Source: Actinopolyspora alba | Lineage (GTDB): Bacteria > Actinomycetota > Actinomycetes > Mycobacteriales > Pseudonocardiaceae | NCBI RefSeq assembly: GCF_900112765.1 | Contig: NZ_FOMZ01000022.1 | Coordinates: forward strand, 1-32,492 | DNA length: 32,492 nucleotides | Direction of reading: 5' to 3' | Shown: piece by piece, positions 2,967-22,915 of the stretch | Numbering within the stretch: position 1 is the first letter of the stretch | How the letters are laid out: each line of letters starts with the position of its first letter | The notes under the pieces: generated by a model | The model's input: only the letters and a program-made list of their open reading frames with translations | The model's database searches: none | Told to the model about the DNA's origin: nothing | Position numbers and translations under genes: made by a program

Positions 2967-2987
2967 GCGCGTCAACAACGACATAAT

Positions 2988-3028
2988 CGGATGTGCCCCG
3001 GCTTATCGTGGAAGCCGGGGCACATCCG
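2988..3028. terminator. Perfect 17-bp hairpin between convergent genes
   Basis: The arms 2988-3004 and 3012-3028 are perfectly complementary around a seven-base loop. The hairpin sits between the stop of the rightward DUF397 gene and the stop of the leftward ATPase gene, so it could end transcription from both sides. No long T-run follows on either strand, which is common in high-GC actinomycetes. Confidence 0.8.
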
Positions 3029-3105
3029 TATCGTGCCGCACAACTCCGCACCGGGCACACTGAGAGTGCCACGAGCAACGGCTGAACTCCTCGGCAGACA
3101 CGCCG

Positions 3106-6100
3106 TTATGTGCTGGTGGCGTTGCGTGCGTCTTCGAGCTGTGCTCGGCTCAATACTGTTCCATCGGGCCAGGGGTGTTGCATGAGCTCCTGCAGTCCGG
3201 GCGAGTGGTGGTGGCTGTGGTCGAGGTCGGCGCCGGGGGTGGTGATGTCGTCGAGGAGCCGAACTGCGAGCACCGCGAGGGTGGTGGAGTCGCCGTCTCC
3301 CCAGGTCAGGCCGTGGGAGTCACCGTGGGGTGCGGGATAGAGCGTTCCGTTTTCGGTGCGCACCCAGATGTCGCCGTCCAGGATCAGTTCAGCAAGGGGA
3401 CTGGAGGAGGGAAGCCGGGAGGGCGCCAGTGCACGCATTTCCGCACCGCTGGGATCGATCGTGACAGGGGTGTCGCTGAGCGGGTCGATCCAGAGGGTGT
3501 CTGCGCTGTCCGGGACGAGCATGACGAACACGGCCCTGTAGGTGACCGACTCGAGGCGGGTGAGGAACTCTTCTCCCCACTTGCTGCGGGGGATGGTGAT
3601 GGTGGAGATGTGTGGGAAATCCGCGCGCACGTTGGCTAGCATGTCTGCAGTGTTGTGCACGCAGTCGACTGCGAGTTTGTCGGACCGTTGCAGTATCTGG
3701 CGCCACGCGTCGCGGCGCTCGTGCTCAGGCAGGTCGTCCAGTTCGACCTTCGGGGTTTCGACTGGCTCGGCGGCGAGGTGAATGTGGTGGCTGCTGATCC
3801 GACCGTCGGCGAGACGCTCGTGCAGCAGCCGTTCATCGGAGGCATCACCGTGCTGGGAGGCTTGCACGGCGTTGATCAGGGTGCGGTGTACCGCGTGCCC
3901 GGCCGGGTAGAGCATGGCCATGCGCAGGAGCACCGCTTCATCGACGTTGATCGACAGGTGCGGAGGGTAGCGCACGGGTTCGTCACCGGGCTGCCAGTCC
4001 AGAATGAGTTGCGGGAGCCGCAGCGAGAACGGCCAATACGGCAGGGATTGGCCCAAGGTGGTGGCGACCGTGGACCATTCCACCTCCTTGCCGTTTCGTC
4101 CAGGATGCCGGCCTGTCGTGGCACGCAGCTCCGGCGCGTGCAATCCCCACAAGGCTTCTTTGATCACCACGTACGCATCCCGTCCGGGGAACCGGTCGGC
4201 GATGTGGACGAGCCGAGTGTGCATTCCCGGCATGGGCCAGCAAAACGCGACGGTGGCCCCATCCGCGCGTCGCCAATCCTGCACCACCATCGCGGTGAAC
4301 TGCGTACCCAGATACCGGTGGTATCTGCGGCCTTCGGCCGCGCCCAAGTAGGTAGCCGCGGTGTTGGTGACTGGCCACTGGTCGATCAGCGTGGTGCTGA
4401 ACTGGGTACTGCTCATAGAGTTCCCTTCACTGGCAGGAATCGGTGCTGGGGTGCCGGTTTCGTCGGCCAGGGGCAGCGACCAGTGTTTGCGCACCGTGGT
4501 GAGTAGTCGCCAGCTCCACGCTGGCGTGACTGCCAGGGCTTGCCGGGCGGTGGCGAGTTGGCTCAGGCTGCCTGGTCCGGGCTGCCAGCCGGCTTGCAGA
4601 GTCGACTCGTCGAGGTCGGCGTCGAAGATGTCGAGCACGGTGGCGCAGTAGTAGAGATAACTGGCTGCGTGCCAGCGCAGTTGCGTCAGGCCAGCGGTGG
4701 GCTCGGTCTCGGTGACCTCGAGGAGCCGGGTGGCCAGAACGATCATGTCGTCGGCGGTGTCGCAGGAACTGGTGTGCAGGGTCAGGGTGGCGGTGTCGAC
4801 ATCGGCTGCGGGACCGAGCTGCTGACTCGCGGCGGCGAAGGCTCGGATCTTGGCGCTCAGATCGGTGGTGACCAGCTGATGTGTTACCTCCTCCAGGAGA
4901 GGAGGTTTTGCGCTGTCGATGCGGTCATGCAGGGCGATAGCGGTGCGGCTGAGCTCCCGGGGAATGCCACCGGACAGGCAGTGACACAGGCCGATGAACG
5001 GCAGCGGCAGGCCGATGACGCGGCGGCTGAGCCAACGCTGGGACTCATCCAGCGTGAACGGCGGCACGGAGATCATGGTCGTGAAGGCGCTGTCGAGAGC
5101 ATCGCGGACGGGAATGCCGCGACGTTCGAAGTCGGTGAGTGCGTCGTCGGAGACGGACACGACGAACGGGCAGTGGGTGATGCCGAAGATGCCTTTGATC
5201 TCGTTGACGAAGTCGTGAGCCTGGGTCGGGCTGGCCATTTTGTCGAGTTCGTCAATGGCGATGACCAGCCCGTCGACGTCTCCGGTCTCGCGCAGTACCG
5301 CCACAGTCCGTTCGAGGAACGCGCGGAGCTGGTCGACCAGTTCCGGGTGTGTCAGTGGTTGTTCGGCATGCTGGAGTGAGCGGTTCCAGTTGATTTCCGC
5401 GCCTTTGCTCGCGCTGAGTTTGCCGGACCAACCGGAGGTGTGGGTTTGCAGGTAGCGCACCCGACGGAGCTGATCTTCGGCGAGTTTGCGCAGCGCAGCG
5501 ATATCAGCATCGAAGGCCCGATTCTCTGCTGTCGGATTCTGGGCCTTGGGCGTGTACGCCCGGATCCGCGGGGTGAACGACTCCAGGCCGAGCACGACGA
5601 ACACGCGGGTTACCGCGTTCCCCACCGCCCGGGAAGCGCCTGAGGAATGCCAGCTGTAGCGTAGCTGTCTGCCGAACTGGACGATGTGACGCCCCTGCGC
5701 GCCGAGGATCCTACCCAGGGGGATCGCTGCGACCCCCAGGGCGTTGACCACGGCGATGAACAGGCCCGTGGTCACCGCGAGCAAGGCGAGCAGGTGCCGA
5801 GCAGACCACTGCGGCGGGTCGGCACCGCTGGCCCCCGCGGCGTGCAGCAGCCGCACATCGGCGACGTAGTGATCCACCGCGCTGGCTGGGTCGCGATACC
5901 ACAGCAGCCAGCCCAGTACCAGCAGCGGCACCGCCCAGCGCAGTCCCCGCCAGAGCCGGCGCAGCAGCCTGCTCGCGTCATGACGGCGCCGAACTTGACC
6001 TCGCAGGTGCTGCCAGCGCTGGTACTCGGCGCTGAAGTGGTCCGCATCGCCGCGGGCAGTCAGATGGTCCAGGACGGCGCGACAGACCCGAGCATGCAGA

Positions 6101-6561
6101 TGCAGTACGAAATCCCGCGCCTCGTAGCGGGCGGGTGCTCCCACGGTGATCGTCAGCCGTCGTGGTTCGTCGTCGCCGACCATGCTTCCAGCCAGCGCCT
6201 GGATCAACGTGGTTTTGCCAGCTCCGCGCTGGCCGGCCAGAGCGATGGCGCCCACCTGCGGGCGCCGCAACTCTCGCAGGAGTGTGCTCATGGAGTCGGT
6301 GCGGATGAGCAACGACACCTCGTCGACCGACTGCAGACCCGCGGCGTCGCGCACGGTGAGGGTGTGCTCGAACGAGGGAGCATGGCTGTCGTTGATGCGT
6401 TCGCGCACTTCCGGCAGGATCAGTTCATCCCGGACGGTTTGCTTCCACCGAAACCGCCGGACGGGAACACCGAGCTGCAACGCTTGCCGTCGGCGCCCCC
6501 ATTGCAGCCGTTCCCAGGTGGCCTGTGGCAGATTCGCCAGCTCCAAAAGCGGCCGGCACAC
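3106..6561 (-). CDS. KAP-like membrane P-loop NTPase, main part
   Basis: The frame gives 1151 aa from a GTG at 6561. It holds a Walker A motif at residues 110-118 (GQRGAGKTT) and a Walker B at 431-441 (GLVIAIDELDK). Two hydrophobic segments lie between them (about 209-222 and 256-283). Transmembrane helices inserted inside the P-loop domain are the hallmark of KAP NTPases, which are predicted to organise membrane complexes and often occur in conflict or defence contexts. About 430 C-terminal residues are not recognised. The GTG has no clear ribosome site, and the sequence upstream in another frame looks like the missing N-terminus, so a frameshift near 6560-6590 is likely. An internal ATG at 4416 has GAAGGGA well placed before it and could yield a separate 436-aa product. 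Confidence 0.7.
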   Translation of the reverse strand: MCRPLLELANLPQATWERLQWGRRRQALQLGVPVRRFRWKQTVRDELILPEVRERINDSHAPSFEHTLTVRDAAGLQSVDEVSLLIRTDSMSTLLRELRRPQVGAIALAGQRGAGKTTLIQALAGSMVGDDEPRRLTITVGAPARYEARDFVLHLHARVCRAVLDHLTARGDADHFSAEYQRWQHLRGQVRRRHDASRLLRRLWRGLRWAVPLLVLGWLLWYRDPASAVDHYVADVRLLHAAGASGADPPQWSARHLLALLAVTTGLFIAVVNALGVAAIPLGRILGAQGRHIVQFGRQLRYSWHSSGASRAVGNAVTRVFVVLGLESFTPRIRAYTPKAQNPTAENRAFDADIAALRKLAEDQLRRVRYLQTHTSGWSGKLSASKGAEINWNRSLQHAEQPLTHPELVDQLRAFLERTVAVLRETGDVDGLVIAIDELDKMASPTQAHDFVNEIKGIFGITHCPFVVSVSDDALTDFERRGIPVRDALDSAFTTMISVPPFTLDESQRWLSRRVIGLPLPFIGLCHCLSGGIPRELSRTAIALHDRIDSAKPPLLEEVTHQLVTTDLSAKIRAFAAASQQLGPAADVDTATLTLHTSSCDTADDMIVLATRLLEVTETEPTAGLTQLRWHAASYLYYCATVLDIFDADLDESTLQAGWQPGPGSLSQLATARQALAVTPAWSWRLLTTVRKHWSLPLADETGTPAPIPASEGNSMSSTQFSTTLIDQWPVTNTAATYLGAAEGRRYHRYLGTQFTAMVVQDWRRADGATVAFCWPMPGMHTRLVHIADRFPGRDAYVVIKEALWGLHAPELRATTGRHPGRNGKEVEWSTVATTLGQSLPYWPFSLRLPQLILDWQPGDEPVRYPPHLSINVDEAVLLRMAMLYPAGHAVHRTLINAVQASQHGDASDERLLHERLADGRISSHHIHLAAEPVETPKVELDDLPEHERRDAWRQILQRSDKLAVDCVHNTADMLANVRADFPHISTITIPRSKWGEEFLTRLESVTYRAVFVMLVPDSADTLWIDPLSDTPVTIDPSGAEMRALAPSRLPSSSPLAELILDGDIWVRTENGTLYPAPHGDSHGLTWGDGDSTTLAVLAVRLLDDITTPGADLDHSHHHSPGLQELMQHPWPDGTVLSRAQLEDARNATST

Positions 6562-7927: not shown

Positions 7928-8390
7928 TTGTGTCTCATGTGGTGTGTTTTGTAGCAGGTCAGTGCTGTGGCGAGAGTGAGAAAGGTGGCGAAGTGGGTGG
8001 CTGTGCGGTCGTATCGGGTGGTGAGACGGCGGTAGTCGGATAATCAGGAGAAGCTGCGCTCGACGACTCATCGGTGGTGGCCGAGTGTGTCGCTGGTGTC
8101 GAGGTCGCGACGGGCGATGCGGGGAGTGATTCCTCGATCGCGGAGCCATCTGCGTAATGTGCGGTAGTCGTAGGTTTTGTCGGCGTGCAGTTTGGTCGGG
8201 CGGAATCGGCGAGGTCCACGACGGGACCGTGTGGCGGGGATGGCCAGCACGAGAGGGATGAGCCCGTGACTGTCGTGCGTGTTGGCGGCCGAGACACCGA
8301 TGGCCAACGGCAGTCCGGTGCGATCGGTCAGCAGATGGTTTTTTGAGCCGGACTTGCCTCGGTCCACAGGGCTGGGCCCAGTCATCGATC
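7928..8390 (-). pseudogene. IS5-family transposase remnant with two Trp-to-stop changes
   Basis: On the minus strand the sequence reads MTGPSPVDRGKSGSKNHLLT, then PLAIGVSAANTHDS, KLHADKTYDYRTLRRWLRDR and LGHHR-stop-VVERSFS-stop-LSDYRRL. The IS5 catalytic C-terminus normally reads HRWVVERxFxWLxxYRR. Both stops (8070-8068 and 8046-8044) are TGA in place of TGG, in one unbroken frame. The N-terminal third, including the first catalytic Asp region, is missing, and the element borders IS110 sequence near 8390. The left border with the small membrane gene is near 7930. It is not active. Confidence 0.8.
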
Positions 8391-8628
8391 CCCCATTACC
8401 TTCTTGTGGTGGCCCCGCAAGGGGGCTCCCGGCCTGTGGGTCCGGCAGGACTTGTCCCCCCTGTCTGCATGATCCGGGGGGTGGTGTCACCGGGCCTGCA
8501 GGCACCGCATGACCGCTGATAGAGGCCGGAGCGTCGCCCTGAGCGAGCGGCAGGCTCTGCGTAATGTGGATGCTGGCTGGACGGTGCCGCCTGGCAGGCC
8601 GGGATGAACTGCGACGGACAGGAACATC
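8391..8628 (+). mobile_element. IS110-type left-end noncoding segment (possible bridge RNA region)
   Basis: These 238 bases lie directly upstream of the IS110-like transposase and have no gene. They contain several short complementary blocks, such as GCCCCGCAAGGGGGC near 8412-8426 and GGTGTCACC near 8482-8490. In IS110-group elements the left-end noncoding segment encodes a structured bridge RNA that guides recombination. Whether this copy kept such an RNA cannot be told by eye. Confidence 0.4.
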
Positions 8629-9235
8629 GTGGTCGAGCCCAACGAGATTGGCGCTTTCGTCGGCTTGGATGTTGGTAAGGGCGAGCATCACGCCCGCGCG
8701 CTGACACCGTCCGGCAAGACCGTTCTGAACAAAACCCTGCCGAACAGCGAGCCGAAGCTGCGGGCGATCGTCGACAAGCTGCAGGCCAAGCATGGCACCG
8801 TGTTGGTGGTGGTCGACCAGCCCGCCTCGATCGGGGCGCTGCCGTTGGCGGTCGCCCGTGACGCCGGCTGTCGGGTGGCCCATCTGCCCGGGCTGACCAT
8901 GCGGCGTATCGCCGACCTGTATCCCGGGGAAGCCAAAACTCCACGCCCGCGATGCCGCCGTGATCGCCGACGCGGCCCGCACGAGGCCCCACACCCTGCG
9001 GGGTCTGGCCCCCGATGACGAGACCGTGGCCGCCCTGTCCATGCTGTGTGGCCACGACGACGACCTCGCCGCCGAGGCCACCCGGGTGCGCAACCGGCTA
9101 CGCGGACTGCTCACCCAGATCCATCCCCACCTGGAACGCGTCCTGGGACCCCGTCTGGACCACCCCGCCGTGCTGAAGCTGCTGTCTGACCACGGCACCC
9201 CGGCTTCACTACGAGACACCGGGCACTACAGCTAG
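8629..9235 (+). pseudogene. IS110-family transposase, frameshifted and truncated
   Basis: The first part from 8629 (MVEPNEIGAFVGLDVGKGEH) shows the N-terminal Asp of the DEDD RuvC-like domain, then VLVVVDQPASIGALPLAVAR and RIADLYPGEAKT. The frame then breaks near 8938-8942: one extra base moves HARDAAVIADAARTRPHTLR into another frame, which ends at 9235. IS110 transposases are about 400 aa; here only about 200 remain and the C-terminal serine (Tnp_20) domain is absent. The copy is therefore dead. It lies on the downstream flank of the lanthipeptide operon. Confidence 0.85.
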
Positions 9236-9418: not shown

Positions 9419-10624
9419 TCATTCTTCGGAATAGGTAACGAGGAGTTCGCAGTGCCGCTTTTCGATGGATGCTTCCGAGAACTTGGTGTCGGCTGGGTAG
9501 GCGGTTACGGTGGGGCGTGCCTCGCGGGCGGGCGACCAGCGATCGATCATCTCGATTAGCCGGTCGGCCAGGGTTTCGGCGGCCGGTCCGTGGCCGATCG
9601 CGCCGAGTTCCCAGCGGGAGCCGTTGTCGGTCTGGTGCCGGTTCTTGGTCGCGTAGGCCAGTGACTCGTCCGCCGCGAGTGCTGGGGACCGCATCGGCGC
9701 GAGCGGGTCGGCGACCTCGCTGGGCACGTCCGGGTTTACGTCGAGTCGGCAAGTGCGGTTGTCCTCGGCGGTCATTCGTAGCCAGATCCCGTCGAAGGGT
9801 TCGTTACCGCCTATCGTGTGCCCGGACCAGCGGGTGGTGCTCGGAGCATCGAGCACACCGTGCAGCTTGTTGGGATCGAGTGGTTGGTCGCGGTCCCAGT
9901 GCAGACTGATGGTGCCGTCGTCGGTGATCGCGCCGCTCTGTTCTCCTTCGGTCTCCCCGGTCAGGTTCACGAAACCGCACAGTTCCACCGAGTCCGAGAC
10001 GAGCGTGCCGTGCTGGTCGGCGAAGGCCACGGCGCGGGTTTGGCCGCGCCAGCGCAGGGGGAGCGCCATGCGTCCGACGGGGGTGAGTTGGTGCCACCAG
10101 GCCGGTGGGATGTCCCAGGGAGAGACGGTGGCGATGATCCGGTCGTAGGGTCCGTGCTCGGCTACCCCGCGCGTGCCATCCCCGGTGACCACACGCACGT
10201 CGCCGTACCCGGCTGCGTTGAGGTTCCGCCGGGCCTGCGTGGTGACGTCGGGGTCCACGTCGATGGTGGTCACGAGCCGCGCGTCGTCGGTGAGTTCGGC
10301 GAGTAGGGCGGCGTTGTAGCCGGTTCCGGCGCCGATCTCCAGCACGCGATCTCCGGGGCGCACGTCGAGTTGGTCGAGCATCATCGCCACGACGAACGGG
10401 GCGCTGGCGCAGCTCAGTGAGGTGCCGTCGGAGAATCGGTGGGTGATCGCGGCCTGGAACGGGTGGTACGCGGTCTCCAGGTCGTGTCCGGGTACGAAGT
10501 CGTGGCGCGGCATGTCCCGCAGCACTTGCTCCACACGCGGGTTCGTCGCGAATCCCTTGTCACGAACCTTGTCGACCATGCGGGCGCGCAGCTCGTCAGC
10601 TGAGGAGGTGTCGATGGTGGTCAT
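9419..10624 (-). CDS. PIMT-like O-methyltransferase, FxLD lanthipeptide system (second copy)
   Basis: The 401-aa protein starts at the ATG at 10624, overlapping the previous stop by four bases (ATGA); the longer open frame upstream is antisense Pro/Arg-rich text. Residues 94-106 carry the SAM-binding motif VLEIGAGTGYNAA, followed by the acidic strand TIDVDPDV and GPYDRIIATVSPWDIPPAWW. The layout matches protein-L-isoaspartate methyltransferases. The additional C-terminal domain is shared with the first methyltransferase of this cluster. Lanthipeptide-associated PIMTs methylate an Asp of the modified peptide, leading through succinimide to isoaspartate. It is the last gene of the operon, and a second MT in the cluster is notable. 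Confidence 0.85.
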   Translation of the reverse strand: MTTIDTSSADELRARMVDKVRDKGFATNPRVEQVLRDMPRHDFVPGHDLETAYHPFQAAITHRFSDGTSLSCASAPFVVAMMLDQLDVRPGDRVLEIGAGTGYNAALLAELTDDARLVTTIDVDPDVTTQARRNLNAAGYGDVRVVTGDGTRGVAEHGPYDRIIATVSPWDIPPAWWHQLTPVGRMALPLRWRGQTRAVAFADQHGTLVSDSVELCGFVNLTGETEGEQSGAITDDGTISLHWDRDQPLDPNKLHGVLDAPSTTRWSGHTIGGNEPFDGIWLRMTAEDNRTCRLDVNPDVPSEVADPLAPMRSPALAADESLAYATKNRHQTDNGSRWELGAIGHGPAAETLADRLIEMIDRWSPAREARPTVTAYPADTKFSEASIEKRHCELLVTYSEE

Positions 10625-11601
10625 TCGGTGTTGTTTCGGAGTGTTGGTGGCGGGCTTTGTTCGGTGTCGAGGATCGCGGTGGTGGCGGTGTGGGCGAGGA
10701 TGCTTTGTGTGGTGGTGTTGAGTCCCAGGCGGTTCCAGTGGAACAGCACGTGGTGGGCGAGGATGTCGCGGAGTCCTCGCTGGAGGGGGTGGGTGTGGGC
10801 CAGGGCGTGTCCGGTGTGGGCGAATGCGTGGGCCCAGGGCGCGTAGGTGTGTAGTGGCCCGTCGGGGCCGAACAAGGGGCCGGTGGGGTGGGGGTCGTGG
10901 GTCAGCAGTGTGTGCAGCTGGTGGGTGAGTTGTTCGGGGTGGGTGAGCGGTGGGGGTGCGGGTCGTGTGCGGCTGACGCGGTGCCAGATGTCGCCGCATT
11001 CGAACCATTCTTGCCCGGCGGCGCGGAACAGGCTGCTGCACAGCAGCAGGGACAGTTCTCGTCGCCCGAGGGATGGGTGTGGGTCGTGCAGGTAGGTCGT
11101 CAGGTGGTGGCTGTCGGCGGCGAACAGTTCGTGGGCGAGGCTCATCGCGGTGGGCCCGCCGAAGGCGGCTTGTTCTGGTTCGTACAGTCCGCGTCGCCAC
11201 GTGGTGAGTGCGCCGGTGGTGCGGAGTTCGTTGAGCAGGGGGTCGATAGTGGAGGCGCTGTCGGCGGGGGTGATGCGCAGGCGTAGTCCGGGGGTTTTGC
11301 GGAGGAACCACCAGCCGGTGATGGCGCCGGTGGTGGTGAGTTGGCGCAGCTGGGGCGCGAGGCTGCTGGTCAGGGTTTCTTCGAGGTGGTCTGGGGGCAG
11401 TTCGAGGGCGAGTTGATACCAGTCGCTGTCGATCCGGGTGGCCAGCGCTGCTTGTCCGGCCTGGTGGTAGGTCTCGACCGCCTCGGCCAGTTCTGCGGAG
11501 CTCATCCCGGCGGTGGCCGCGGCGTGTGCGAGTGGTGTTCCGCCAAGCACGGTGAGCACGGCGTGGGTGGTGGCGTCGTGGGTCAGCTCAGCAGCAGACA
11601 T
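10621..11601 (-). CDS. Stand-alone thiopeptide-type bacteriocin biosynthesis protein (SpaB_C domain)
   Basis: I chose the ATG at 11601 (MSAAELTHDATTHAVLTVLG), with GGATGGGA just upstream; an ATG at 11610 is possible. Residues 1-55 form a helical N-terminal module. The rest fits the SpaB_C fold, with GWWFLRKTPGLRLRI near residue 100, YEPEQAAFGG, a C-terminal HVLFHWNRLGL and a length of 326 aa. In class I lanthipeptide and thiopeptide pathways this fold removes glutamate from glutamylated Ser/Thr to give dehydroamino acids. It overlaps lanC by 19 bases and the second methyltransferase by four, so it is co-translated. It probably works with LanB on the precursor. Confidence 0.85.
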   Translation of the reverse strand: MSAAELTHDATTHAVLTVLGGTPLAHAAATAGMSSAELAEAVETYHQAGQAALATRIDSDWYQLALELPPDHLEETLTSSLAPQLRQLTTTGAITGWWFLRKTPGLRLRITPADSASTIDPLLNELRTTGALTTWRRGLYEPEQAAFGGPTAMSLAHELFAADSHHLTTYLHDPHPSLGRRELSLLLCSSLFRAAGQEWFECGDIWHRVSRTRPAPPPLTHPEQLTHQLHTLLTHDPHPTGPLFGPDGPLHTYAPWAHAFAHTGHALAHTHPLQRGLRDILAHHVLFHWNRLGLNTTTQSILAHTATTAILDTEQSPPPTLRNNTE

Positions 11602-12794
11602 GCGTCCCATCCGGATCGTGGTGGTGTGTCGATGAGGGCGGTGTGCAGGGCGAGAGCGGTTCCGGCGGTGCCGGTGAGGAATCCGGGATCGCTGGTGGGG
11701 GTGATCGTGTCGAGGTGGCTGGTGAGCTGCTGGGGCAGCGTGGACAGGTGGTGGGTGATCGAGGTGCTTCGGGCGTCGCCGGCGATGCGCCAGCTGGTTT
11801 GGTAGAGCCCGGCCCAGCCGTGGCACAGCCCGTTGTCGCTGATCAGTGCCAGTTGCCGTGGGTCGGTCAGGCAGGCGGTGAGGGCGTTTTCGGCGTGGCG
11901 TTGCCGGGTGGTGTCGTCGAGGGCGAGTGCGGCCAGCTGGTGGGCGCGGGCGATGCCGGGGGTGCCGTAGCACCAGGAGGGGCGTGGTGGACCGTGCTGG
12001 TGGGCGGCGGTGAGTGCGTGGTGCTCGTGGGTGATCCATTGGGGCCACCAGGAACCGTGATCGGTGTCGTGGCGCCAGTGGTCGTAGTGGGCGAGGATTC
12101 GTTCGATCGCTTCGCGCTGGCCGGGCACGGTGATGCCGCGTCGCCGTGCGAGGGCCAGCAGCGCGAGGGGGCCGGCGATGCCGTGGGCGAGGCCGTGGTT
12201 GGCGTGCCCACCGGGGGTGGGTAGGGCAGGGTCGGGATCGTGGGCGGCCCACCAGCCGGGCAGGGTGGTCTCGGTGTCCCGCTTGGGGTGAGTGAGTCGG
12301 ACGAGGTAGTCGAGTACGCGGGCGAGGGCGTCGTCGCCGGGGGCGTGGTCGAGCAGCAGTCGGCCTGTCCCGGTCAGTCCGCGAAACAGGTCGTAGTCGC
12401 TGAAGTGGGTGCTGCCCTGCTGGAGGTGTTGTAGGGCGAGGTCGACCCGGCGGTGGGTGTCGGCGGTGATCGACTCGTGCAGGGTGGTCGCGGCGGCGGC
12501 GTAGGAGGGGATGTTCTCGCTGGCGGTGTGCAGCAGTGTCGCCACGGCGGGGGCGCCGAGATACAGCGAGGTGTCGGTGCCGGCGAGCACGGGGTGGGTG
12601 GTGGCGGCGCGCACCCAGGTGTGGGCGCGGTGCCAGGGGCCGTGGCCGCTGCGGGCTCGTTCCAGGTGCAGCAGGGCGGTCCCGGCGGTGCCGCGGGACA
12701 GTGATTGCGCGTGCCAGGCCGGCGTGGCCGGTGGGGGTGTGGCGAGTTCTTCGGCGATGCGGGTGAGGCAGGAAGCGGTGGTAGTGGCGGTCAT
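11583..12794 (-). CDS. lanC: LanC-like lanthipeptide cyclase
   Basis: The ATG at 12794 (MTATTTASCLTRIAEELATP) overlaps the LanB stop by four bases. The 403-aa protein has repeated GxxG-type turns expected of the alpha/alpha barrel (LSRGTAGTALLHL, LFRGLTGTGRLLL, GLAHGIAGPLALL, FLTGTAGTALAL). It has the zinc ligands Cys275 (SWCYGTPG), Cys324 and His325 (GLCHGWAGL), plus His204 as a likely acid/base residue. LanC adds Cys thiols to dehydroalanine/dehydrobutyrine to form lanthionine rings. All catalytic positions appear intact, so the enzyme should be active on the four-Cys precursor of this operon. Confidence 0.93.
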   Translation of the reverse strand: MTATTTASCLTRIAEELATPPPATPAWHAQSLSRGTAGTALLHLERARSGHGPWHRAHTWVRAATTHPVLAGTDTSLYLGAPAVATLLHTASENIPSYAAAATTLHESITADTHRRVDLALQHLQQGSTHFSDYDLFRGLTGTGRLLLDHAPGDDALARVLDYLVRLTHPKRDTETTLPGWWAAHDPDPALPTPGGHANHGLAHGIAGPLALLALARRRGITVPGQREAIERILAHYDHWRHDTDHGSWWPQWITHEHHALTAAHQHGPPRPSWCYGTPGIARAHQLAALALDDTTRQRHAENALTACLTDPRQLALISDNGLCHGWAGLYQTSWRIAGDARSTSITHHLSTLPQQLTSHLDTITPTSDPGFLTGTAGTALALHTALIDTPPRSGWDACLLLS

Positions 12795-15700
12795 GGGGCT
12801 CTCCGGTCGCCGAGGGCGAGGCGGCGTTGGGCGACGGCTCGGGCCAGCCGTTGGGTCAGCCGTTCGGCTCCGGTGTCGACGCCGACGGCGCGCAGGTGGT
12901 GTTCGCGCAGCAGGGACCGCAGCACGGTGTCGGGGTCGGCGTGGTCGTGATGCTGCTGGTCGCGGTAGGCCAGGACCGCCTCGCGCCGACGGCGCCATGC
13001 GGTGGCCAGCTCGGTGCCGCCGGTGAGTGTGGTCAGCTGTTCCAGAGGGTCCCGGTCGGCCAGGTGGAGCGCGGCGTCGCGCAGCTCGCGGTCGAGTTTG
13101 CCGGGCTGGTGGGCCAGCAGGTGGGTCAGCCAGCGATAGCCCTGCTCGGGGGTGGGGGCCAGATGCGCGGCGATGTCGGTCATCGACACGGCCGCGGTGG
13201 CTTGGCTGGGCAGGCCGGTTGTGCTGGCCCAGTGCAGTTGGGACAGGGCCGTCTCGGAGTCGGTGGTGAAGAGCTGTTCGGCGGCGGTCTCGGTGTCAGG
13301 CCGCGTGCCGTAGGTCCCGTGCGGGTGGTACGGCGCGAGGGTGTACTCGGCCAGCAGCCCGATCTGCTGCAGGGGTGCGGCCCAGTCGGCCAGGCGGGCG
13401 GCGCTCTCGGCGTAGTGGCTGCCTGATTCGAGGCGGAAGCACAGGGTGAGGTACTGGTCGCTGTCGGGGCGGTGGGGCTGGTGGTGTCGGGTGAACCACC
13501 AGCGGCGCGTCCGCTCGGCGAGGGCGTGGCAGAGGCTCGGCAGGTGCTGGGTCAGCACGGTGGTGGCTCGCTCGGGATGGACGAGCATGTCGGCGCGCAG
13601 CACGTGCCCGGTGCCGGGCAGGTGTGCCCGGCTGGGGGAGGGAACGGCTGCGGCGGGTGCCGGGGCGGGCTGGTGCGCGGGTGGGCTGGCGCTCAAGGGG
13701 GTGAGGAATTCGCAGACGCGGCGCGACCAAGCATGATCCTGGGGGCTGCCTGTTTCGCGGAGCAGCACGTGGCTGCTGCGGCTGTGCTGCAGGCGGCGAC
13801 GCAGCAGCGCCCGGTCACCGGGATCGTCCAGGTCGAGGGGGAGCCGCTGGTCGCCGCGTTCGATCAGCTGCACGTGTGCGGGGATGTGCCAGCGGTGGCG
13901 CCACGTGGCCAGCGCGGTGTCCCAGCTGTCGGTGTCCGCCTCGGCGGTGAGCAGATCGGCGCGGGGCAGGCGCCACTGGGCGGGGGAGAGCACGGTGCGG
14001 CCGTATCGCAGGCGGGGAAGCATGGGCATCTCTCGGGCGGCACCGACGTCGACGAGTCCGTAGAAACCGCTGCAGGCCGAGGGCAGCTCCGCCAGAAACC
14101 GCGCCAGTGGGGGTGTGTGCTGCTGGGTCTCCAGCGCGTGCGGCAGCCACGGCCGTACCCGCTGCCCGGTGGAGAGCCGTATCAGCCCCATGCTGCGGTG
14201 GTCGGCGGTGACGGCGAGATCGTCGAGCGGGATCACCGTGTGGTCCTGCTCGTGGTACTCGCCGAGAGGGATCAGGTGCGACGTCAGCTGGGGCACGCGG
14301 GTGATGTTCTCGTTGTGTTCGCGTCGTGGGGGAAACGACAGTTGGGCGGGCAGGGTGTGCTCGTCGTCGGGGGCATAGGTCTGGGCCAGCCGGTGCTGGT
14401 CCGGCTCGGACAGCAGCGGGGCGAACCGGCCGGCCATGCTGCCGGGGTGCATCGCGCCGGTGACCCACAGCTGGAACCGGCCGTGCCGCAGCGCGGCCGG
14501 TGAGGGGCTGTGCAGCTGGAAGGCCAGTTCCACTCTCTCCGGCGGGATCATGCGCTCGTGGTCGCCGACCCGCAGCTGCTCGAGAAGCGGTTCGGTCAGG
14601 GTGATCTCGCGCTCTCCGGCGGCGGTGACCTGCTGGATCAGCCGCAGCAGGGTGGTGTCGCGCTCGGTGAGCATGTGGGGGCTGTGCGCTCGGGCGGCGC
14701 CGAGCCATCCGGCGGGAAACCCCAGCCCGGAATCGGCGATGATCTCGCGCACCGGCACGCGGGCCCCGGCGCCGTAGCGGGCGAGGAAACGCTGGTGGTA
14801 CTCGCGCCAGGCGGGCGTGCCGAACGGGTGCGGAGTCAGCCGCAGCAACGCCGTCGCGGCGGATTCGGCTTCGGCCAGTGCCTGCTCGGGGATTGTGGGC
14901 GGCTGGTCCAGGGTGGCGTCGACCGCCAGCACCGTCTCGGCGGGGCGGAGGGTGCGCATCCGCGTGGCGGTCTCGGTCAGCGCTGCTCGGCCCGCGTCGT
15001 CGGCGATGGTGTGGTGAGGCAGCGCGGTGTGCACCATGGACAGCTGGGTAGCCAGCTCGGTGACGGCGGGAAGATCCTCGAGCTCGGCGTTTTGCAGCGT
15101 TTCCACGACATGGGCCAGCGGGTTCGGGCTGGTCATCGGGGGCCGCAGGTTGGTCAACAGTGCTTTGGCGGCCACCAGCTCGCCCAGCAGCGTCTCGATC
15201 GTGGTCGAGGACGCGTGGGCAAACGTCTCGGCGAGCTTGTCCTGCAGACTGGCCAGCAGGATCGGCTCGCTGGCCGCGTCCAGCGCGGCACGCACCGGCC
15301 CGGTTAACCGCAGCGACAGGTCCAGCGCGGACGCGTGGTCAGGGGCGGACTCGGACAGGTGGGTGGGCACAACGAGTTGGTCTCCGCGAACGTGCGCGGC
15401 GTTGTTGGTCACCACCAGCAAGCGCGTGCGCACCTGCCGGTCGTGTTCCAGCTCGTCGATGAGGCCGCCCAGCCAGCCCGCGTCGGGGCGTGCCGTGATC
15501 CGGTGTGCGTCGCCGGCCGGGGACGGCTGGTCGCTGGGGACGGTGGCGGCCACCCCGGCGAACAGGCCGAACGGGGTGGCGCGCCGTTGCCAGCGCCGCA
15601 GATACGCCGAGACCGTGCCGAGCAGGCGGGGCAGGGAATGTTGCCCCCGGGAGTGCCCGGCGAGTTCGGTCTCGATGGTGCGTGCCAGCGCGGGACTGGC

Positions 15701-15877
15701 CACCGTCACCGCCGAGCGGATCTCCTCGCGGCGCCACAATTCGACCAGCCAGTCCCGGCCTGTCTGCTGGTCGGCGCTGGCGTGAAGCACGGGCGGCAGA
15801 TCCCAGCTGCCCGGATCGGTGCTGGCGCGCACCTGCACCACACCGGTGTGGCGGTAGACGGGGTGTCCAGAACCCAC
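12791..15877 (-). CDS. lanB: LanB-type lanthipeptide dehydratase
   Basis: The GTG at 15877 (MGSGHPVYRHTGVVQVRAST) is preceded by GGAGAG. At 1028 aa it has full LanB length. Residues 99-106 (RATPFGLF) give the family signature of the glutamylation domain, which uses glutamyl-tRNA to activate Ser/Thr. The C-terminal third, from about residue 700 after a Pro/Ala-rich linker (PPAHQPAPAPAAAVPSP), resembles the elimination domain (VLRADMLVHP, RRWWFTRHH). However, the LRLR-type motif seen in the separate SpaB_C protein is replaced by YLTLCFRL. It follows the precursor gene after a 50-base gap and overlaps lanC. It should dehydrate the precursor core. Confidence 0.92.
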   Translation of the reverse strand: MGSGHPVYRHTGVVQVRASTDPGSWDLPPVLHASADQQTGRDWLVELWRREEIRSAVTVASPALARTIETELAGHSRGQHSLPRLLGTVSAYLRRWQRRATPFGLFAGVAATVPSDQPSPAGDAHRITARPDAGWLGGLIDELEHDRQVRTRLLVVTNNAAHVRGDQLVVPTHLSESAPDHASALDLSLRLTGPVRAALDAASEPILLASLQDKLAETFAHASSTTIETLLGELVAAKALLTNLRPPMTSPNPLAHVVETLQNAELEDLPAVTELATQLSMVHTALPHHTIADDAGRAALTETATRMRTLRPAETVLAVDATLDQPPTIPEQALAEAESAATALLRLTPHPFGTPAWREYHQRFLARYGAGARVPVREIIADSGLGFPAGWLGAARAHSPHMLTERDTTLLRLIQQVTAAGEREITLTEPLLEQLRVGDHERMIPPERVELAFQLHSPSPAALRHGRFQLWVTGAMHPGSMAGRFAPLLSEPDQHRLAQTYAPDDEHTLPAQLSFPPRREHNENITRVPQLTSHLIPLGEYHEQDHTVIPLDDLAVTADHRSMGLIRLSTGQRVRPWLPHALETQQHTPPLARFLAELPSACSGFYGLVDVGAAREMPMLPRLRYGRTVLSPAQWRLPRADLLTAEADTDSWDTALATWRHRWHIPAHVQLIERGDQRLPLDLDDPGDRALLRRRLQHSRSSHVLLRETGSPQDHAWSRRVCEFLTPLSASPPAHQPAPAPAAAVPSPSRAHLPGTGHVLRADMLVHPERATTVLTQHLPSLCHALAERTRRWWFTRHHQPHRPDSDQYLTLCFRLESGSHYAESAARLADWAAPLQQIGLLAEYTLAPYHPHGTYGTRPDTETAAEQLFTTDSETALSQLHWASTTGLPSQATAAVSMTDIAAHLAPTPEQGYRWLTHLLAHQPGKLDRELRDAALHLADRDPLEQLTTLTGGTELATAWRRRREAVLAYRDQQHHDHADPDTVLRSLLREHHLRAVGVDTGAERLTQRLARAVAQRRLALGDRRAP

Positions 15878-15927
15878 GGTTCTCTCCTGATGCTGACGAT
15901 CACACGGGCCGCGGCGAGGCAGGACTG

Positions 15928-16107
15928 TCAGTACGGGGTCTGGGCGACCTGACTGGTGCAGGCCGACCCACAGGTGGTTCCGCCGCAGCCGTCGCTGGTG
16001 TCGCAGGACATCTTCGCCAGGGGCAGGCTGTCCTCGACCACACTGATGTCGAGCGTGAACTCGTCCAGCTCACCGGGGGCGGCAGTCTGCTCGAGTGCCT
16101 GGGTCAT
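15928..16107 (-). CDS. lanA: FxLD-family lanthipeptide precursor (59 aa)
   Basis: The ATG at 16107 has AAAGG eight bases upstream; a GTG at 16116 touches that site and is less likely. The leader MTQALEQTAAPGELDEFTLD holds the FxLD motif (FTLD, residues 17-20), followed by ISVVEDSLPLAK. The core begins near residue 33 with MSCDTSDGCGGTT, then CGSACTSQVAQTPY. It has Cys35, 41, 46 and 50, up to nine Ser/Thr for dehydration, and Asp36 and Asp39. Asp39 precedes Gly, the most favourable context for succinimide/isoAsp formation, which fits the two PIMT-like enzymes. The leader cleavage site and ring pattern cannot be read from sequence. No dedicated transporter or protease was seen in the window. 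Confidence 0.92.
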   Translation of the reverse strand: MTQALEQTAAPGELDEFTLDISVVEDSLPLAKMSCDTSDGCGGTTCGSACTSQVAQTPY

Positions 16108-16131
16108 CTCGGTCACCTTTCGGTCGGTTTC

Positions 16132-17376
16132 TTACTCGGCCTGGCTCGCGGCACCTTCGGCCGCGGGCCAGGAGATCGTGATGCGGCTGTGGCGCTTGGT
16201 GATCACCAGATCGGCCGGGGGCAGCCGCTCGTCGGAGGTCTCGCGGGGCCAGACCGCGATGTCGGGCCCGGGCCCGTGACGCCGCTCGCGATCCCAGACA
16301 CGGATCTGCTCGGCCATCTGCTCGGCGAGAGTGTCCGCGTGCGGCCCGAAGGCATACACACCGAATTCGGAGACACCGGGCGAGGCGCGCCGTGCCGTCA
16401 GATAGGCCACCGAATCGTGGGTGACCACCGCCGGGTCGAACCACAACACCTCGGCAGAGGCCAGCGTGTCTTTCTGGTCGGGCTCGGCGGCCAACCGGCC
16501 GAATCCGGCAAACCGGGTGGCCAGCCAGAATGAGAGCGTGTCGAACGATTCACTACCGGGCAGGGTCACCCCGCTCCACAGCTCGACCCGCGGGGTGGTC
16601 ACCAGCTCATCGAGCTCCGGGGGCTGATCGTCGGGCCAGCCATCGTCGAACCGCACGACGACGGTGCTGCCCCGCAGCGACACCAGCTGCTCCGTGGTGG
16701 CCCCCTGGCCCTGCATGGTGACGAACCCGCACACCTCGGCAGAGCGGCTGACCAGGTGATCGTCCTGCCGGTCCAGGGCCAGCGAGCGGGTCAATCCCCG
16801 CATCCGCAGCGGAACCACCAAGCGGCCCCGCGGTGCGAGCTGATCCATCCAGGCGGAGGGGATGTCCCACGCGCTGACCGTGACCACGATCCGGTCGTAG
16901 GGGCCGTCACCGACCTCTCCGGCCGCCGCGTCGGCGGTGATCACGTTCACTGCTGGAAAACCGGCTCGATCCAGCAACTCGCGGGCCCGGGCGGTCACTT
17001 CGGGGTCAATGTCGACGCTGGTCACAGACCCGTCCGGGCCGGCCAGATGGCTGAGCATGGCGGCATTGACCCCACCGGAACCGATTTCCAACACGCTCAT
17101 GCCGGGGCGAATGTCGGCCTGTTCCAGCATTCCCGCCTGCAGCTGCGGCGCCGAGACAGTGCTGATCGCGACCCCGTGCTCATCACGCTTGATCGGCACG
17201 GCCGCCCGGGGATCGTAGGCCTGCTGCAGCGGTGCCTCAGGGGTGAACCATCGCCGATCCACCACCCGAAACACGTCGGCGATCCGTTCACTACGCACCG
17301 CACCCATCGTCCACAGTTGATTGATCATGTCCTCGCGCAGCGCGTCGGCCTGCGCGGAATCCGTCGACGTACTCAT
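16132..17376 (-). CDS. Methyltransferase, FxLD lanthipeptide system (first copy)
   Basis: The first gene of the operon is 414 aa from the ATG at 17376. Residues 75-84 (SAPQLQAGML) match the PIMT substrate-side motif. Residues 95-102 (VLEIGSGG, followed by VNAAML) form the SAM site, then come TSVDIDPEVTARAREL and GPYDRIVVTVSAWDIPSAWM. The C-terminal 190 residues are the extension found in FxLD-system methyltransferases. It lies 24 bases before the precursor gene and is clearly homologous to the operon's last gene. The SAM loop reads GSGGVN rather than the GAGTGYN of the other copy. The expected role is methyl transfer to an Asp side chain of the modified precursor. Confidence 0.9.
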   Translation of the reverse strand: MSTSTDSAQADALREDMINQLWTMGAVRSERIADVFRVVDRRWFTPEAPLQQAYDPRAAVPIKRDEHGVAISTVSAPQLQAGMLEQADIRPGMSVLEIGSGGVNAAMLSHLAGPDGSVTSVDIDPEVTARARELLDRAGFPAVNVITADAAAGEVGDGPYDRIVVTVSAWDIPSAWMDQLAPRGRLVVPLRMRGLTRSLALDRQDDHLVSRSAEVCGFVTMQGQGATTEQLVSLRGSTVVVRFDDGWPDDQPPELDELVTTPRVELWSGVTLPGSESFDTLSFWLATRFAGFGRLAAEPDQKDTLASAEVLWFDPAVVTHDSVAYLTARRASPGVSEFGVYAFGPHADTLAEQMAEQIRVWDRERRHGPGPDIAVWPRETSDERLPPADLVITKRHSRITISWPAAEGAASQAE

Positions 17377-17943
17377 CTACACGTCACTTCCGGTCGTTGT
17401 TTGACGACAGTGCTGGGGGTGAAGGTGCCCGGAACACGTCACAGCGGCCGCCGCGTCACAGGATGGCGGAACCCGCGAGGCGCGGGGCCGGCGATAGCCG
17501 TGTCGGCACCGTGACGGGTCCGTTGCCCGTCCGAGGCTGGCGGCGGCGAAACCGGGGATGACCGCTGGGCAGCGGCGCCGTTAACGCCTCGGAAGTCTCG
17601 ACGTGTGAGCACGGAGTGCGTTCGGCAGCGACAAGGCTGCTCGGTCCTCGTCGTCTTCGTGCCTTTCGCTCTCGACCGGGGAAAGGCTGCGCGGCCGGCG
17701 GGAGAGCTCCAGAGCGGGCAGGAGTCGGAACTCGCCTACGAGTCGGCTCCTTCGGAGACACGTGTTCGAAGGCGCCCAGCTGGCAGGGGGCATGCCGCTG
17801 CTGGTCAGCTGCGGCGGTTGTTGTCGAGGGGGTCACGGATCACCTTCACCATCACGGCAGCGGCAAATGCGTAAAGCATGTTCTTGGCGCATATGCGATA
17901 TTGCGTCGTTCGTGGGGAGGTGATCAATCGTCCAAACGAGTGA
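17377..17943. promoter_or_regulatory. Upstream region of the lanthipeptide operon
   Basis: This 567-base gap has no convincing gene; open frames read as Arg/Pro/Ala-rich text. It must hold the operon promoter. It includes the perfect palindrome CGCATATGCG at 17888-17897, also found upstream of the neighbouring XRE gene at 19252-19261. The stretch 17868-17936 is AT-richer than the rest. Confidence 0.4.
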
Positions 17944-17976
17944 CGCCCTCGGTGACGACGTGGGTCACCGAGGGCG
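17944..17976 (-). terminator. 13-bp hairpin after the DUF397 gene
   Basis: CGCCCTCGGTGAC (17944-17956) pairs perfectly with 17964-17976 around a seven-base loop. It lies 20 bases past the stop of the leftward DUF397 gene. It should separate the regulator pair from the lanthipeptide operon, which therefore needs its own promoter. Confidence 0.75.
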
Positions 17977-17996
17977 CCTTCCCATTCAGCAGAGGC

Positions 17997-18203
17997 TCAG
18001 AGGTCGAACTCACCTGCTTTGACGCCGGCCAGGAACGCGGTCCATTCCCCGGCGGTGAAGACATGAGCGCCCTGGGCGCGGTCTTTGGTGTCGCGGACGG
18101 CGACGTGTCCCGGCGCGTAGCCCACCTCGACGCAGCCTCCGCCATTGGCGGCGCTGGCCGTGGCCTTGTGCCAGCCGCCGAAGCTCTCGGTCGTCGGGAT
18201 CAT
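17997..18203 (-). CDS. DUF397 domain protein
   Basis: The 68-aa protein starts at the ATG at 18203, which shares one base with the stop of the XRE gene (TAATG). Its sequence MIPTTESFGGWHKATASAAN, followed by GGGCVEVGYAPGHVAVRDTK, then FTAGEWTAFLAGVKAGEFDL is a classic DUF397 pattern with a WxKA start, a CVEV strand, VRDTKD and a W-x-x-F-L end. It is more canonical than the DUF397 near 2712. Its role is unknown beyond partnership with XRE/DUF5753 regulators, here probably that of the adjacent gene. Confidence 0.9.
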   Translation of the reverse strand: MIPTTESFGGWHKATASAANGGGCVEVGYAPGHVAVRDTKDRAQGAHVFTAGEWTAFLAGVKAGEFDL

Positions 18204-19132
18204 TATGATGCTTCTCCTTCGGATGTGGATCGTGCGAACTCCCCGGCGATACGACGCACGAGTTCGCGCGAATGCACGGGATCGAGGGCCGCTCCCAACA
18301 GCCCATGCCACAGATCACTGTATTCGGCGACCTCAGTGGGGCCATCGAGGTAGTTCGCGTCGTGATACTGCTCAACCAGCACGAACTCCAGCGGTGATGC
18401 TTGTGGCCCTATCGAGGGTATGCGGAACTGCACGAACGGGAAAGAAAGCCCGATAGCGGTCCTGCTGCCGAACGCGGCGACATGCAGGTCGATGTTGGGG
18501 CGCTCGGACAACTCCACCAGGTAGTCCAGCTGCCGACGCATCACCGCCGGTCCGCCCACCTGCCGCCGAAGCGCGGACTCGGACAGCACAGCGGTCACGC
18601 GCGGGGCGGTGTCGGTGGTCAGAACCTGTTGACGCTCCAGCCGAGCCTTGACCGCCGACTCGGTGGACTCGGTGACAGAGCGCAACGCGCCGTCGGTGAA
18701 CAACGCTCGAATGTATTCCTCGGTTTGGAACAGCCCGTGGATGATCTCCGACTGGTAGAGGTTGATCACCTCGGCGTCGGCCTCCAGATCCATGGCCATC
18801 CGAAACCACTTGGGCACGATCGAGCGATACCCCCGCCATCGCCCACGAACATCCGTGCCCTTGTTGATCTCGACGAGCTGTTCGACATCAACCTCGTCAC
18901 CCCCGTCAGCGGGCGCGCCTCGCTCCGTGGAACCGAGGGTCTCCCGGTAGAACCGAACCAGTTCACGGAGGTCTTTCTGGCGGATGCTCGTCACGCCGTT
19001 TTCGAGCTTGCTGACGACACTCCAGTTGCGTTCGATCACCCTCGCGGCATCGACGAGCTCCAGTCCAGCGCGTTCACGTAGCGAACGTAGCTCTTTGCCC
19101 AGCATGAACCGCAGCACTGTGGGGGTTGACAT
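18203..19132 (-). CDS. XRE-family regulator with DUF5753 domain
   Basis: I chose the ATG at 19132 (MSTPTVLRFMLGKELRSLRE), with GGGAGGA eight bases upstream; the ATG at 19138 is too close to that site. The helix-turn-helix spans about residues 8-65 (LRERAGLELVDAARVI, NWSVVSKLENGVTS). The DUF5753 part follows (YRSIVPKWFRMAMDLEADAE, IIHGLFQTEEYIRALF, LSESALRRQVGGPAVMRRQL, LVEQYHDANYLDGPTEV). At 309 aa it is of normal length. It sits between its DUF397 partner and a gap containing inverted repeats and is the closest regulator to the lanthipeptide operon. Confidence 0.9.
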   Translation of the reverse strand: MSTPTVLRFMLGKELRSLRERAGLELVDAARVIERNWSVVSKLENGVTSIRQKDLRELVRFYRETLGSTERGAPADGGDEVDVEQLVEINKGTDVRGRWRGYRSIVPKWFRMAMDLEADAEVINLYQSEIIHGLFQTEEYIRALFTDGALRSVTESTESAVKARLERQQVLTTDTAPRVTAVLSESALRRQVGGPAVMRRQLDYLVELSERPNIDLHVAAFGSRTAIGLSFPFVQFRIPSIGPQASPLEFVLVEQYHDANYLDGPTEVAEYSDLWHGLLGAALDPVHSRELVRRIAGEFARSTSEGEAS

Positions 19133-19197
19133 GGGCATGATCCTCCCACGTTCCGAGTCGACCGAAAACGACGGATTCGAAGAACTTTGACGCATCG

Positions 19198-19261
19198 CAT
19201 TGTCGTTTCGCATGTTCGAAGTTACTGTGATCGACACGCGACAATGCCAATCGCATATGCG
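19198..19261. promoter_or_regulatory. Inverted repeats upstream of the XRE gene
   Basis: CATTGTCG at 19198-19205 is mirrored by CGACAATG at 19239-19246, and a perfect palindrome CGCATATGCG follows at 19252-19261. The region is AT-richer than its surroundings and lies 65-130 bases before the regulator start, a suitable place for promoter and operator. Confidence 0.45.
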
Positions 19262-19818
19262 ACGAGGGGGTGTCTCCTCCAGGGACGTGCCTCTCGCCCC
19301 GCCTCGACGTCTGCTGTGCCCGTTTCCTGCGGCGTCCTCCGAGAACGGACACACGGCGTCGTGGACTCGTCCTGGATGTGGGTGGGACGGGACTGGCGCG
19401 GGAGTGCGTGCTGGCCGGTGTCGCGATCGAGCCTCGGGCATGTCTCCGAGGCCGACGCCTCACGTCGGAGGCCTCCGCCGAGACGCTGCGGCAGTCCCAG
19501 CGGGGTGCCTCCGGCATGCCAGGCACCCGTCGTCGGTGACGTGACAACGGGGTCCGTCACCGGCGGTGGGAGAAAGCCCTTGGCTTCTCCGCCCCTCGGG
19601 GGAGCTGAGGGGAGGCGGCTGCCGCTCGGGCCTGTTCGCGACCCCCGACCGCATCGGTTCGAGCGGCAGTCGGCCTGTCCGGTCTTCCATTCGTGCTCTG
19701 GAGGGAAAGCACTCCCATGCTTATGCCCCTTGCTGCCATCACCGCCGACACCGTCTGCCCCTCGCGCACCGGCCGAGGCAGGCACTACCCCCTCTTTCGG
19801 AACGAGAAGCCGGTGACC
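19262..19818. other. Intergenic stretch without a convincing gene
   Basis: About 560 bases hold no frame with recognisable motifs. Near 19566-19588 GGAGAAAGCC can pair with GGCTTCTCC, and directly after it CCCCTC pairs with GAGGGG (19591-19612). These two adjacent hairpins may be terminators or remnants of a mobile region. Confidence 0.35.
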
Positions 19819-19998
19819 ATGCCCGGCGAGACCTCTTCACCACTACGACGTGAGGTGCTTCTGCTGTCGCTGTGCCGAACCGCGCACCTACGCACCCCAC
19901 CCCACGACGCACCACTATCGGAACGGGTGTGCGCGCTGTGCCTGCGTGCCCGCGCCACAGCACGAGACGAGACCAACGAGCTCGCCACCACGGCCTGA
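19819..19998 (+). CDS. Small Cys/His protein, possible zinc-ribbon (59 aa)
   Basis: From the ATG at 19819 the frame gives MPGETSSPLRREVLLLSLCR, then TAHLRTPPHDAPLSERVCAL and CLRARATARDETNELATTA. Two His (HLRTPPH) precede a VCALC pair, which could bind a metal. The start lacks a strong ribosome site. Similar small Cys-pair proteins are frequent in actinomycete accessory regions. The coding call is tentative. Confidence 0.42.
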   Translation: MPGETSSPLRREVLLLSLCRTAHLRTPPHDAPLSERVCALCLRARATARDETNELATTA

Positions 19999-22854: not shown

Positions 22855-22915
22855 CCTTTTTGTGCTGGAAAAACAAGGTTGCTTTATTGTTTTGTGACTT
22901 CTTGATTGGGGGAGG
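22855..22915 (-). promoter_or_regulatory. AT-rich leader of CRISPR array 1
   Basis: The bases between the first repeat and the end of cas2 are A/T-rich (runs such as CTTTTTG and TTTATTGTTTTG), in strong contrast to the GC-rich flanks. This is the expected place for the leader that carries the array promoter and the spacer-integration signals. It is short and overlaps the last codons and stop (TAA) of cas2. Confidence 0.65.

Follow-up and report, generated by a model that had tools for sequence, protein, structure and literature searches.

The minus strand of a 32,492-nucleotide stretch of Actinopolyspora alba DNA (from contig NZ_FOMZ01000022.1; this whole stretch is called the window hereafter) carries, at positions 9419–17376, a complete FxLD lanthipeptide operon of six co-directional genes in the order MT1, LanA, LanB, LanC, SpaB_C/TIGR03891 and MT2, in which the first and the last encode methyltransferases (MTs). 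Comparison with related loci marks it as a chimeric class I lanthipeptide operon of the FxLD family, in which one segment was replaced by another. The MT pair most likely arose by a merger: a complete type I cassette (MT-A-B-C-SpaB_C, with a "head" MT) replaced the middle of a type II operon (A-B-C-MT, with a "tail" MT), and the old last gene, MT2, was kept. We regard this merger, together with Asp39 of the precursor as the methylation target, as quite likely. The components of the locus are as follows (aa, amino acids; SAM, S-adenosylmethionine; HTH, helix-turn-helix).

16132–17376 (−): MT1, first gene, 414 aa, head-clade FxLD O-methyltransferase (LanSA/PAMT type), SAM loop GSGGVN; TIGR04364, 522.9 bits; pLDDT 87.2
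15928–16107 (−): LanA precursor, 59 aa, FTLD leader motif, core ...CDTSDGCGGTTCGSACTSQVAQTPY; TIGR04363, 57 bits
12791–15877 (−): LanB, full-length dehydratase, 1028 aa, glutamylation (PF04738, 652.8 bits) and elimination (PF14028, 77.6 bits) domains
11583–12794 (−): LanC cyclase, 403 aa, PF05147 (147 bits); its start overlaps the LanB stop via ATGA
10621–11601 (−): second SpaB_C/thiopeptide-type (TIGR03891) protein, 326 aa; TIGR03891, 185.3 bits; PF14028
9419–10624 (−): MT2, last gene, 401 aa, tail-clade FxLD O-methyltransferase, SAM loop GAGTGYN; TIGR04364, 402.8 bits; pLDDT 85.1
17920–19956: upstream flank of the type II locus, containing an HTH/DUF5753 regulator gene at 18203–19441 (−); PF19054
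10600–10640: right junction of the replaced segment, where the 3′-end of the cassette is joined to the 5′-end of MT2 at the octamer AACACCGA

Replacement of the operon interior

In the congener G048 (locus L134), the regulator flank is followed by intact lanA2-lanB2-lanC2-MT2. In the window, the type I cassette is located between the upstream flank and MT2, at the place where lanA2-lanB2-lanC2 stand in G048. Among nine congeners searched, long matches to the flank were found only in G047 (1405 of the 2037 bases) and in G048, G053 and G046 (whole length), and in each of them the flank sits directly upstream of an operon ending in MT2. The MT2 DNA is 79.7% identical between the window and G048. 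Another replacement is seen in G053 and G046: there, lanB2 and most of lanC2 have given way to a type I cassette unlike that of the window, and what survives of the older operon is lanA2, MT2 and a LanC2 remnant of some 100 aa. In G053, this cassette takes the place of positions 4270–7971 of L134, with flanks 96.6% and 95.6% identical to those of G048, and it occurs alone elsewhere in G051 (L136) with an identity of 90–93%. When a replacement is recognized by the same flanks and an intact ancestor in a relative, G053 and G046 provide both flanks, and the window provides the upstream flank and MT2. Since G048 retains intact A2-B2-C2-MT2, and two different cassettes occur in the window and in G053/G046, these comparisons indicate that one kind of locus received two different cassettes, MT2 being left each time.

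When lanA2, lanB2 and lanC2 were searched in the window with tblastn, matches below E 0.1 fell only on the cassette's own genes, and nothing else of the three genes was detected. The source genome (5.24 Mb, 42 contigs) yielded only two FxLD precursors, each located in a type I cluster, and no type II precursor; the second operon (L138 5300–12524; G000 C39) is of type I, with one MT and the core SPTEDNCGQTCESACPQTGC. A phylum-wide precursor search over 396 genomes gave matches in seven; apart from the window, the best one scored 30.9 bits at 48% identity. A plasmid search gave one 72-base match only. An assembly artefact is unlikely, because the same gene order, with MT2 truncated, is present in G047, a single-contig genome of 5.24 Mb. 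At two other loci, L128 and L129, an open lanA2 frame is kept upstream of the head MT, beside the new cassette, and one LanB/LanC pair there may serve two precursors.

Mosaic divergence and the junction

The synonymous divergence (dS) between the window and G047 was 0.03–0.06 for MT1, LanB, LanC and the SpaB_C gene, and 0.167 for MT2; LanA is identical in the two. The unequal dS indicates that the cassette and MT2 have separate histories. The junction was compared over six loci. The octamer AACACCGA lies within codons 2–4 of MT2 in G048, G053, G054 and G051, and it forms the last codons (NTE, stop) of the SpaB_C gene in the window and G047, where the MT2 ATG is just inside. The MT2 region is homologous to L130 between 9294 and 10632, the latter position lying eight bases upstream of the MT2 start codon in the window. 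A DDE transposase domain (PF01609) is encoded at 8068–9219 (−), directly downstream of MT2. As this transposase adjoins MT2 and the L130 homology stops at 9294, a mobile element may have shaped the MT2-side edge of the locus.

Components of the operon

Both MTs and LanA score above the respective family cut-offs (320 bits for TIGR04364, the FxLD methyltransferase; 30 bits for TIGR04363, the precursor), and LanB, LanC and the TIGR03891 protein likewise exceed theirs. The operon thus has all the components that define an FxLD class I cluster, namely, a precursor with an FxLD leader, a LanB with both domains, a LanC and an FxLD-system methyltransferase, of which there are two. In a preliminary description based on the letters of this DNA, an FxLD operon with two full-length homologous MTs as its first and last genes had been recognized; all six genes were found at the positions given there, and the MTs proved to be 37% identical over 407 columns. 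In the list of open reading frames (ORFs), MT2 starts at a GTG and comprises 630 aa; homology supports a 401-aa protein whose start codon, the ATG at 10624, overlaps the SpaB_C stop. An overlap with the preceding gene is found for LanC, for the TIGR03891 gene and for MT2, and MT2 is thereby placed for translation together with the rest of the operon. The earlier remark that no exporter or protease gene is seen nearby agrees with a Pfam scan of the eight flanking ORFs, the far right part of the window lying outside the scan, in which no transporter or protease domain was found.

Cluster survey and operon types

A total of 129 distinct clusters were obtained from 181 sources: the window, 80 loci of named genomes (the best 80 of 96, among the matches listed) and 100 further stretches (20 and 80). 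A cluster was retained if its LanB matched over more than 300 aa and its LanB frame was distinct in the last 600 aa; L228 was not used. The 20 stretches were partly picked for showing two MTs, so that dual clusters are over-represented. Type I (a head MT and a separate TIGR03891 gene, without a tail MT) accounts for 53 clusters, type II (a tail MT only, without a separate TIGR03891 gene) for 29, and type III (a TIGR03891-MT fusion) for 25. Some of the single-MT entries have a head MT that is split over two frames (L155, L159) or partial (L209). The mixed clusters comprise nine with a fusion and a tail MT, seven with head and tail MTs and a TIGR03891 gene, one with head and tail MTs without this gene, and one with head MT, fusion and tail MT. 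Incomplete or otherwise mixed are L226 (an unfused TIGR03891 gene with two MTs behind), L174 and L211 (head MT only) and L186 (no MT in view). The LanB of the window belongs to a clade of 40 LanBs, all from type I clusters, and the type II LanBs form one clade (26 of 26).

Other arrangements with more than one MT were also seen. L146 carries two head-clade MTs in tandem, and L145 has a convergent second head-clade MT at its tail. In L069, L084 and L226, a tail-clade MT stands behind an operon that already has a fused-clade MT; these, too, are trailing MTs that come from a different operon type.

Two old paralogues with clade-wide signatures

Of 193 MT domains collected, 167 were distinct. A head clade of 73 leaves (support 0.955), obtained with FastTree, holds all 65 full-length MTs located upstream of LanB; the tail clade has 48 leaves (support 0.885), and the support of the fused clade is low (0.338). 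In an IQ-TREE analysis of 55 sequences, in which three other proteins of the source genome resembling protein isoaspartate methyltransferase (PIMT) served as a monophyletic outgroup, the ultrafast bootstrap value (UFBoot) was 100 for each of the head, tail and fused clades, one fused protein (L097) lying outside the fused clade. The nearest relative of the window MT1 is that of G047, followed by the MT1 of the single-MT cluster L148 (FastTree), and the window MT2 groups with tail MTs from six further loci in the genus (support 100; IQ-TREE). On the basis of these trees, MT1 and MT2 are old paralogues in separate, well-supported clades. The preliminary description had proposed to examine whether the two copies fall in separate clades that co-occur. 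The separate clades were obtained, but co-occurrence is rare: full-length head and tail MTs are found together in 6 of the 129 clusters (the window, L076, L079, L090, L128 and L131), five of which are from one genus, and in two more dual clusters, L082 and L133, an MT frame is broken. Recent near-identical duplicates and the loss of active-site residues in one copy had been named as findings that would speak against its proposal. Recent duplication is ruled out by the 37% identity and the separate clades. No loss was found either: the SAP motif is kept in both MTs, and an alignment of 15 head and 15 tail proteins shows its Ser in every one of them, while the looser S-x-P pattern occurs in 36 of 73 head, 27 of 48 tail and 42 of 43 fused proteins.

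The SAM loops GSGGVN and GAGTGYN were both confirmed. Their difference had been taken to suggest specialization, which was not borne out by the survey: the short GSGG loop occurs in 71 of the 73 head-clade proteins, and GxGxG in all 48 tail-clade proteins (GAGTGYN in 47). From this distribution, the difference is a clade signature and not a specialization of the window operon, and an operon-specific adaptation is ruled out since the loops are clade-wide. With respect to the GxGxG motif by which LanSA enzymes are recognized, GAGTG of MT2 matches, and MT1 has the shortened GSGG typical of its clade. The WxxxGxP motif is absent from both MTs and was found in 2 of 73 head, 0 of 48 tail and 1 of 43 fused proteins (3 of 164). 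The PCMT domain of MT1 occupies residues 15–223 of 414, which leaves a C-terminal extension longer than 100 aa; a C-terminal domain is present in the predicted models of both MTs. Both models match PIMT structures, the best by E-value being PDB 1DL5.

The precursor and the target Asp

The 59-aa precursor has exactly two core Asp residues, at 36 and 39, as had been described, and Asp39 lies within TSDGC (37–41). According to passages of PMC10787088 and PMC13001092, TxDGC is the usual core motif and one Asp is the target. The TxDGC Asp was present in 120 of the 122 clusters with a recognized core, where the search pattern itself demanded D or N. The type II cores carry T-x-D-G-C or close forms. 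The earlier suggestion that the two MTs serve two Asp sites was not supported by the comparison of clusters: among the single-MT type I clusters, 26 of 49 have Asp36, versus 2 of 8 among the head-plus-tail clusters (Fisher p 0.25). L153 and L161 (core not recognized) and L145 and L146 (two head-clade MTs) were left out of this count; when the latter two were added as dual clusters, the values were 4 of 10 versus 26 of 49 (p 0.51). Most likely, to the extent that cores and operon types tell, both MTs are able to act on one conserved TxDGC Asp, with MT1 as the cognate enzyme.

Proposed course of events

As the sequence comparisons show, a type II operon ancestral to the genus (regulator, lanA2, lanB2, lanC2, MT2) lost lanA2-lanB2-lanC2, and the type I cassette (MT1, lanA, lanB, lanC and the SpaB_C gene) took that place, MT2 remaining as the old last gene. 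MT2 and the last gene of the cassette are probably translationally coupled, because the SpaB_C gene and MT2 overlap by ATGA. LanB and LanC would dehydrate and cyclize the precursor, and a LanSA-type MT would presumably act after them, methylating Asp39 of TSDGC. By analogy with the characterized relative OlvSA, the Asp39 ester would close to an aspartimide that hydrolyses largely to isoaspartate (isoAsp). MT1 would be the cognate enzyme. MT2 would most likely be a redundant enzyme for the same Asp39, rather than for Asp36; it can probably act on Asp39 because the ancestral type II substrates carry TxDGC too.

Alternative explanations and the state of MT2

Several observations weigh against the merger with Asp39 as the shared target. 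The upstream flank of the window is only 68–69% identical, and downstream of MT2, no significant DNA match was found between the window and G048. The type I LanBs do not form one clade, 18 of 58 (including those of G053 and G054) being outside the clade of the window. Exactly two core Asp residues occur in 8 of 8 head-plus-tail clusters versus 20 of 49 single-MT clusters (p 0.0019). Finally, the comparison of MT2 between the window and G047 gave 39.5 nonsynonymous to 39.5 synonymous changes (p 1.8e-6 versus neutrality), a constraint that a plain relic would not need. The Asp excess is the observation that, together with the two core Asp of the present precursor, favors a division of labor in which MT1 and MT2 methylate different residues, 36 and 39; in addition, a passage of PMC13001092 states that the residue after the conserved Asp can be Thr, as it is after Asp36. 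In the dual clusters, the two Asp are spaced as DxxD in two and adjacent (DD) in six, and these clusters are related, not independent. Because of this relatedness and the differing positions, the excess is not read here as two modification sites, though it does count against the present view. Asp36 lies outside TxDGC, is absent from six of the eight dual clusters and occurs in about half of the single-MT type I clusters; operons of either ancestral type mostly carry a single MT. A division of labor is therefore very unlikely. Duplication of one MT in place, followed by divergence, would account for both being TIGR04364 members, but it hardly deserves consideration in view of the 37% identity, the grouping of each MT with other operon types and the trees, which contradict it.

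The remaining explanations differ from the merger with a redundant MT2 in what MT2 does at present. The MT2 frame is open over its full length in the window, G046, G053 and G054. A rearrangement in G047 has cost MT2 everything beyond about residue 350, which in the model comprises the last helix and three strands; in L082, a metagenome bin, the frame is broken. The MT2 genes of the composite loci of G053 and G046 differ by 25.5 nonsynonymous and 14.5 synonymous changes (p 0.20), without clear constraint. The MT2 divergence between the window and G047 is older than their shared cassette, and much of it may predate the cassette; the constraint in this pair is not separable into parts before and after the capture. 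That MT2 is a decaying relic without function would fit the truncation in G047, the G053–G046 result and the lack of a type II precursor among those found in the source genome, but the open frames, the overlapping start codon and the constraint between the window and G047 make it rather unlikely. Less probable still is a cooperative ratchet, in which both MTs act on Asp39, one favoring Asp and the other the isoAsp from aspartimide hydrolysis, so that the product is held as aspartimide/isoAsp. It would be consistent with the same constraint, with the methylation of both Asp and isoAsp by OlvSA, a characterized LanSA (as given in part of PMC13001092), and with the recurrence of tail-clade MTs behind type I operons in the genus and behind the fused-clade operons mentioned above; the truncated and broken MT2 frames and the single MT of most operons argue against it. 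Improbable to a slightly greater degree is a general rule of capture and retention, by which tail-clade MTs would be repeatedly retained behind foreign FxLD operons as a second, differently tuned PIMT homologue that pushes the Asp-aspartimide-isoAsp cycle to one product; if true, it would mean a two-enzyme aspartimide ratchet in a lanthipeptide. Taken together, MT2 is probably redundant or being lost. That it is still an active, redundant enzyme is nearly an even matter, leaning slightly to the negative. A cooperative role is possible, and a catalytic-plus-helper arrangement of MT1 and MT2, also suggested earlier, is possible but not supported.

Relation to known systems

FxLD class I clusters (TIGR04363, TIGR04364) share with the window the precursor, LanB, LanC, the TIGR03891 protein and the PIMT-like MT; they have one MT, whereas the window has two full-length MTs of different clades. 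Going by the portions available of PMC13001092 and PMC7268733, the OlvA/OlvSA system of Streptomyces olivaceus NRRL B-3009 likewise has a PIMT homologue with a C-terminal domain beside a class I lanthipeptide with a conserved Asp, a likeness by description, and the window differs by its extra tail MT. In OlvSA, as part of PMC13001092 reports, an aspartimide forms and is hydrolysed mostly to isoAsp. PIMT of Thermotoga maritima (PDB 1DL5) also has a catalytic domain with a C-terminal extension and is the best fold match of both MT models, but it is not an enzyme for ribosomally synthesized and post-translationally modified peptides, the identity is 18–20%, and the whole-length superposition is poor (root-mean-square deviation of about 10 Å). 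The PIMT homologues of the pamtides/imiditides, graspetides and lasso peptides, as described in excerpts of PMC10787088 and PMC13001092, share Asp methylation to aspartimide and the C-terminal domain; those systems are without lanthionine machinery, and their WxxxGxP is the motif found in only 3 of the 164 FxLD MTs.

Parts of PMC7268733 and PMC13001092 already describe class I lanthipeptide clusters with PIMT homologues, as well as the additional SpaB_C protein and its fusion with an MT. In the one open-access library searched, which leaves aside supplements and most subscription journals, no report was found of a cluster containing two LanSA enzymes, nor of the present replacement, and nothing on point was found there for lanthipeptides of Actinopolyspora. 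The base-level breakpoints show how a lanthipeptide operon is remade by the swap of a whole cassette, with a tailoring gene left behind. What becomes of a captured tailoring enzyme, and what use is made of it, is directly testable within this one genus, where the intact ancestor, a truncated copy and two different replacements are all found. The result also cautions that two paralogues in one cluster are not evidence of two modifications.

Other features of the window

A second HTH/DUF5753 regulator is encoded at 1807–2715 (+), and positions 1620–3046 are 88.5% identical to a G051 segment that immediately precedes the type I cassette there (L136). A 1151-aa ORF at 3106–6561 (−) weakly matches an AAA ATPase domain, with a score under the Pfam cut-off. 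Positions 22337–28741 are 89.5% identical to the DNA adjoining a LanC2-MT2 remnant in G051 (L137). CRISPR-like repeats are found near 22.4–22.9 and 32.0–32.4 kb (region of about 22300–32490), and the large ORFs between them resemble cas genes, by reading only.

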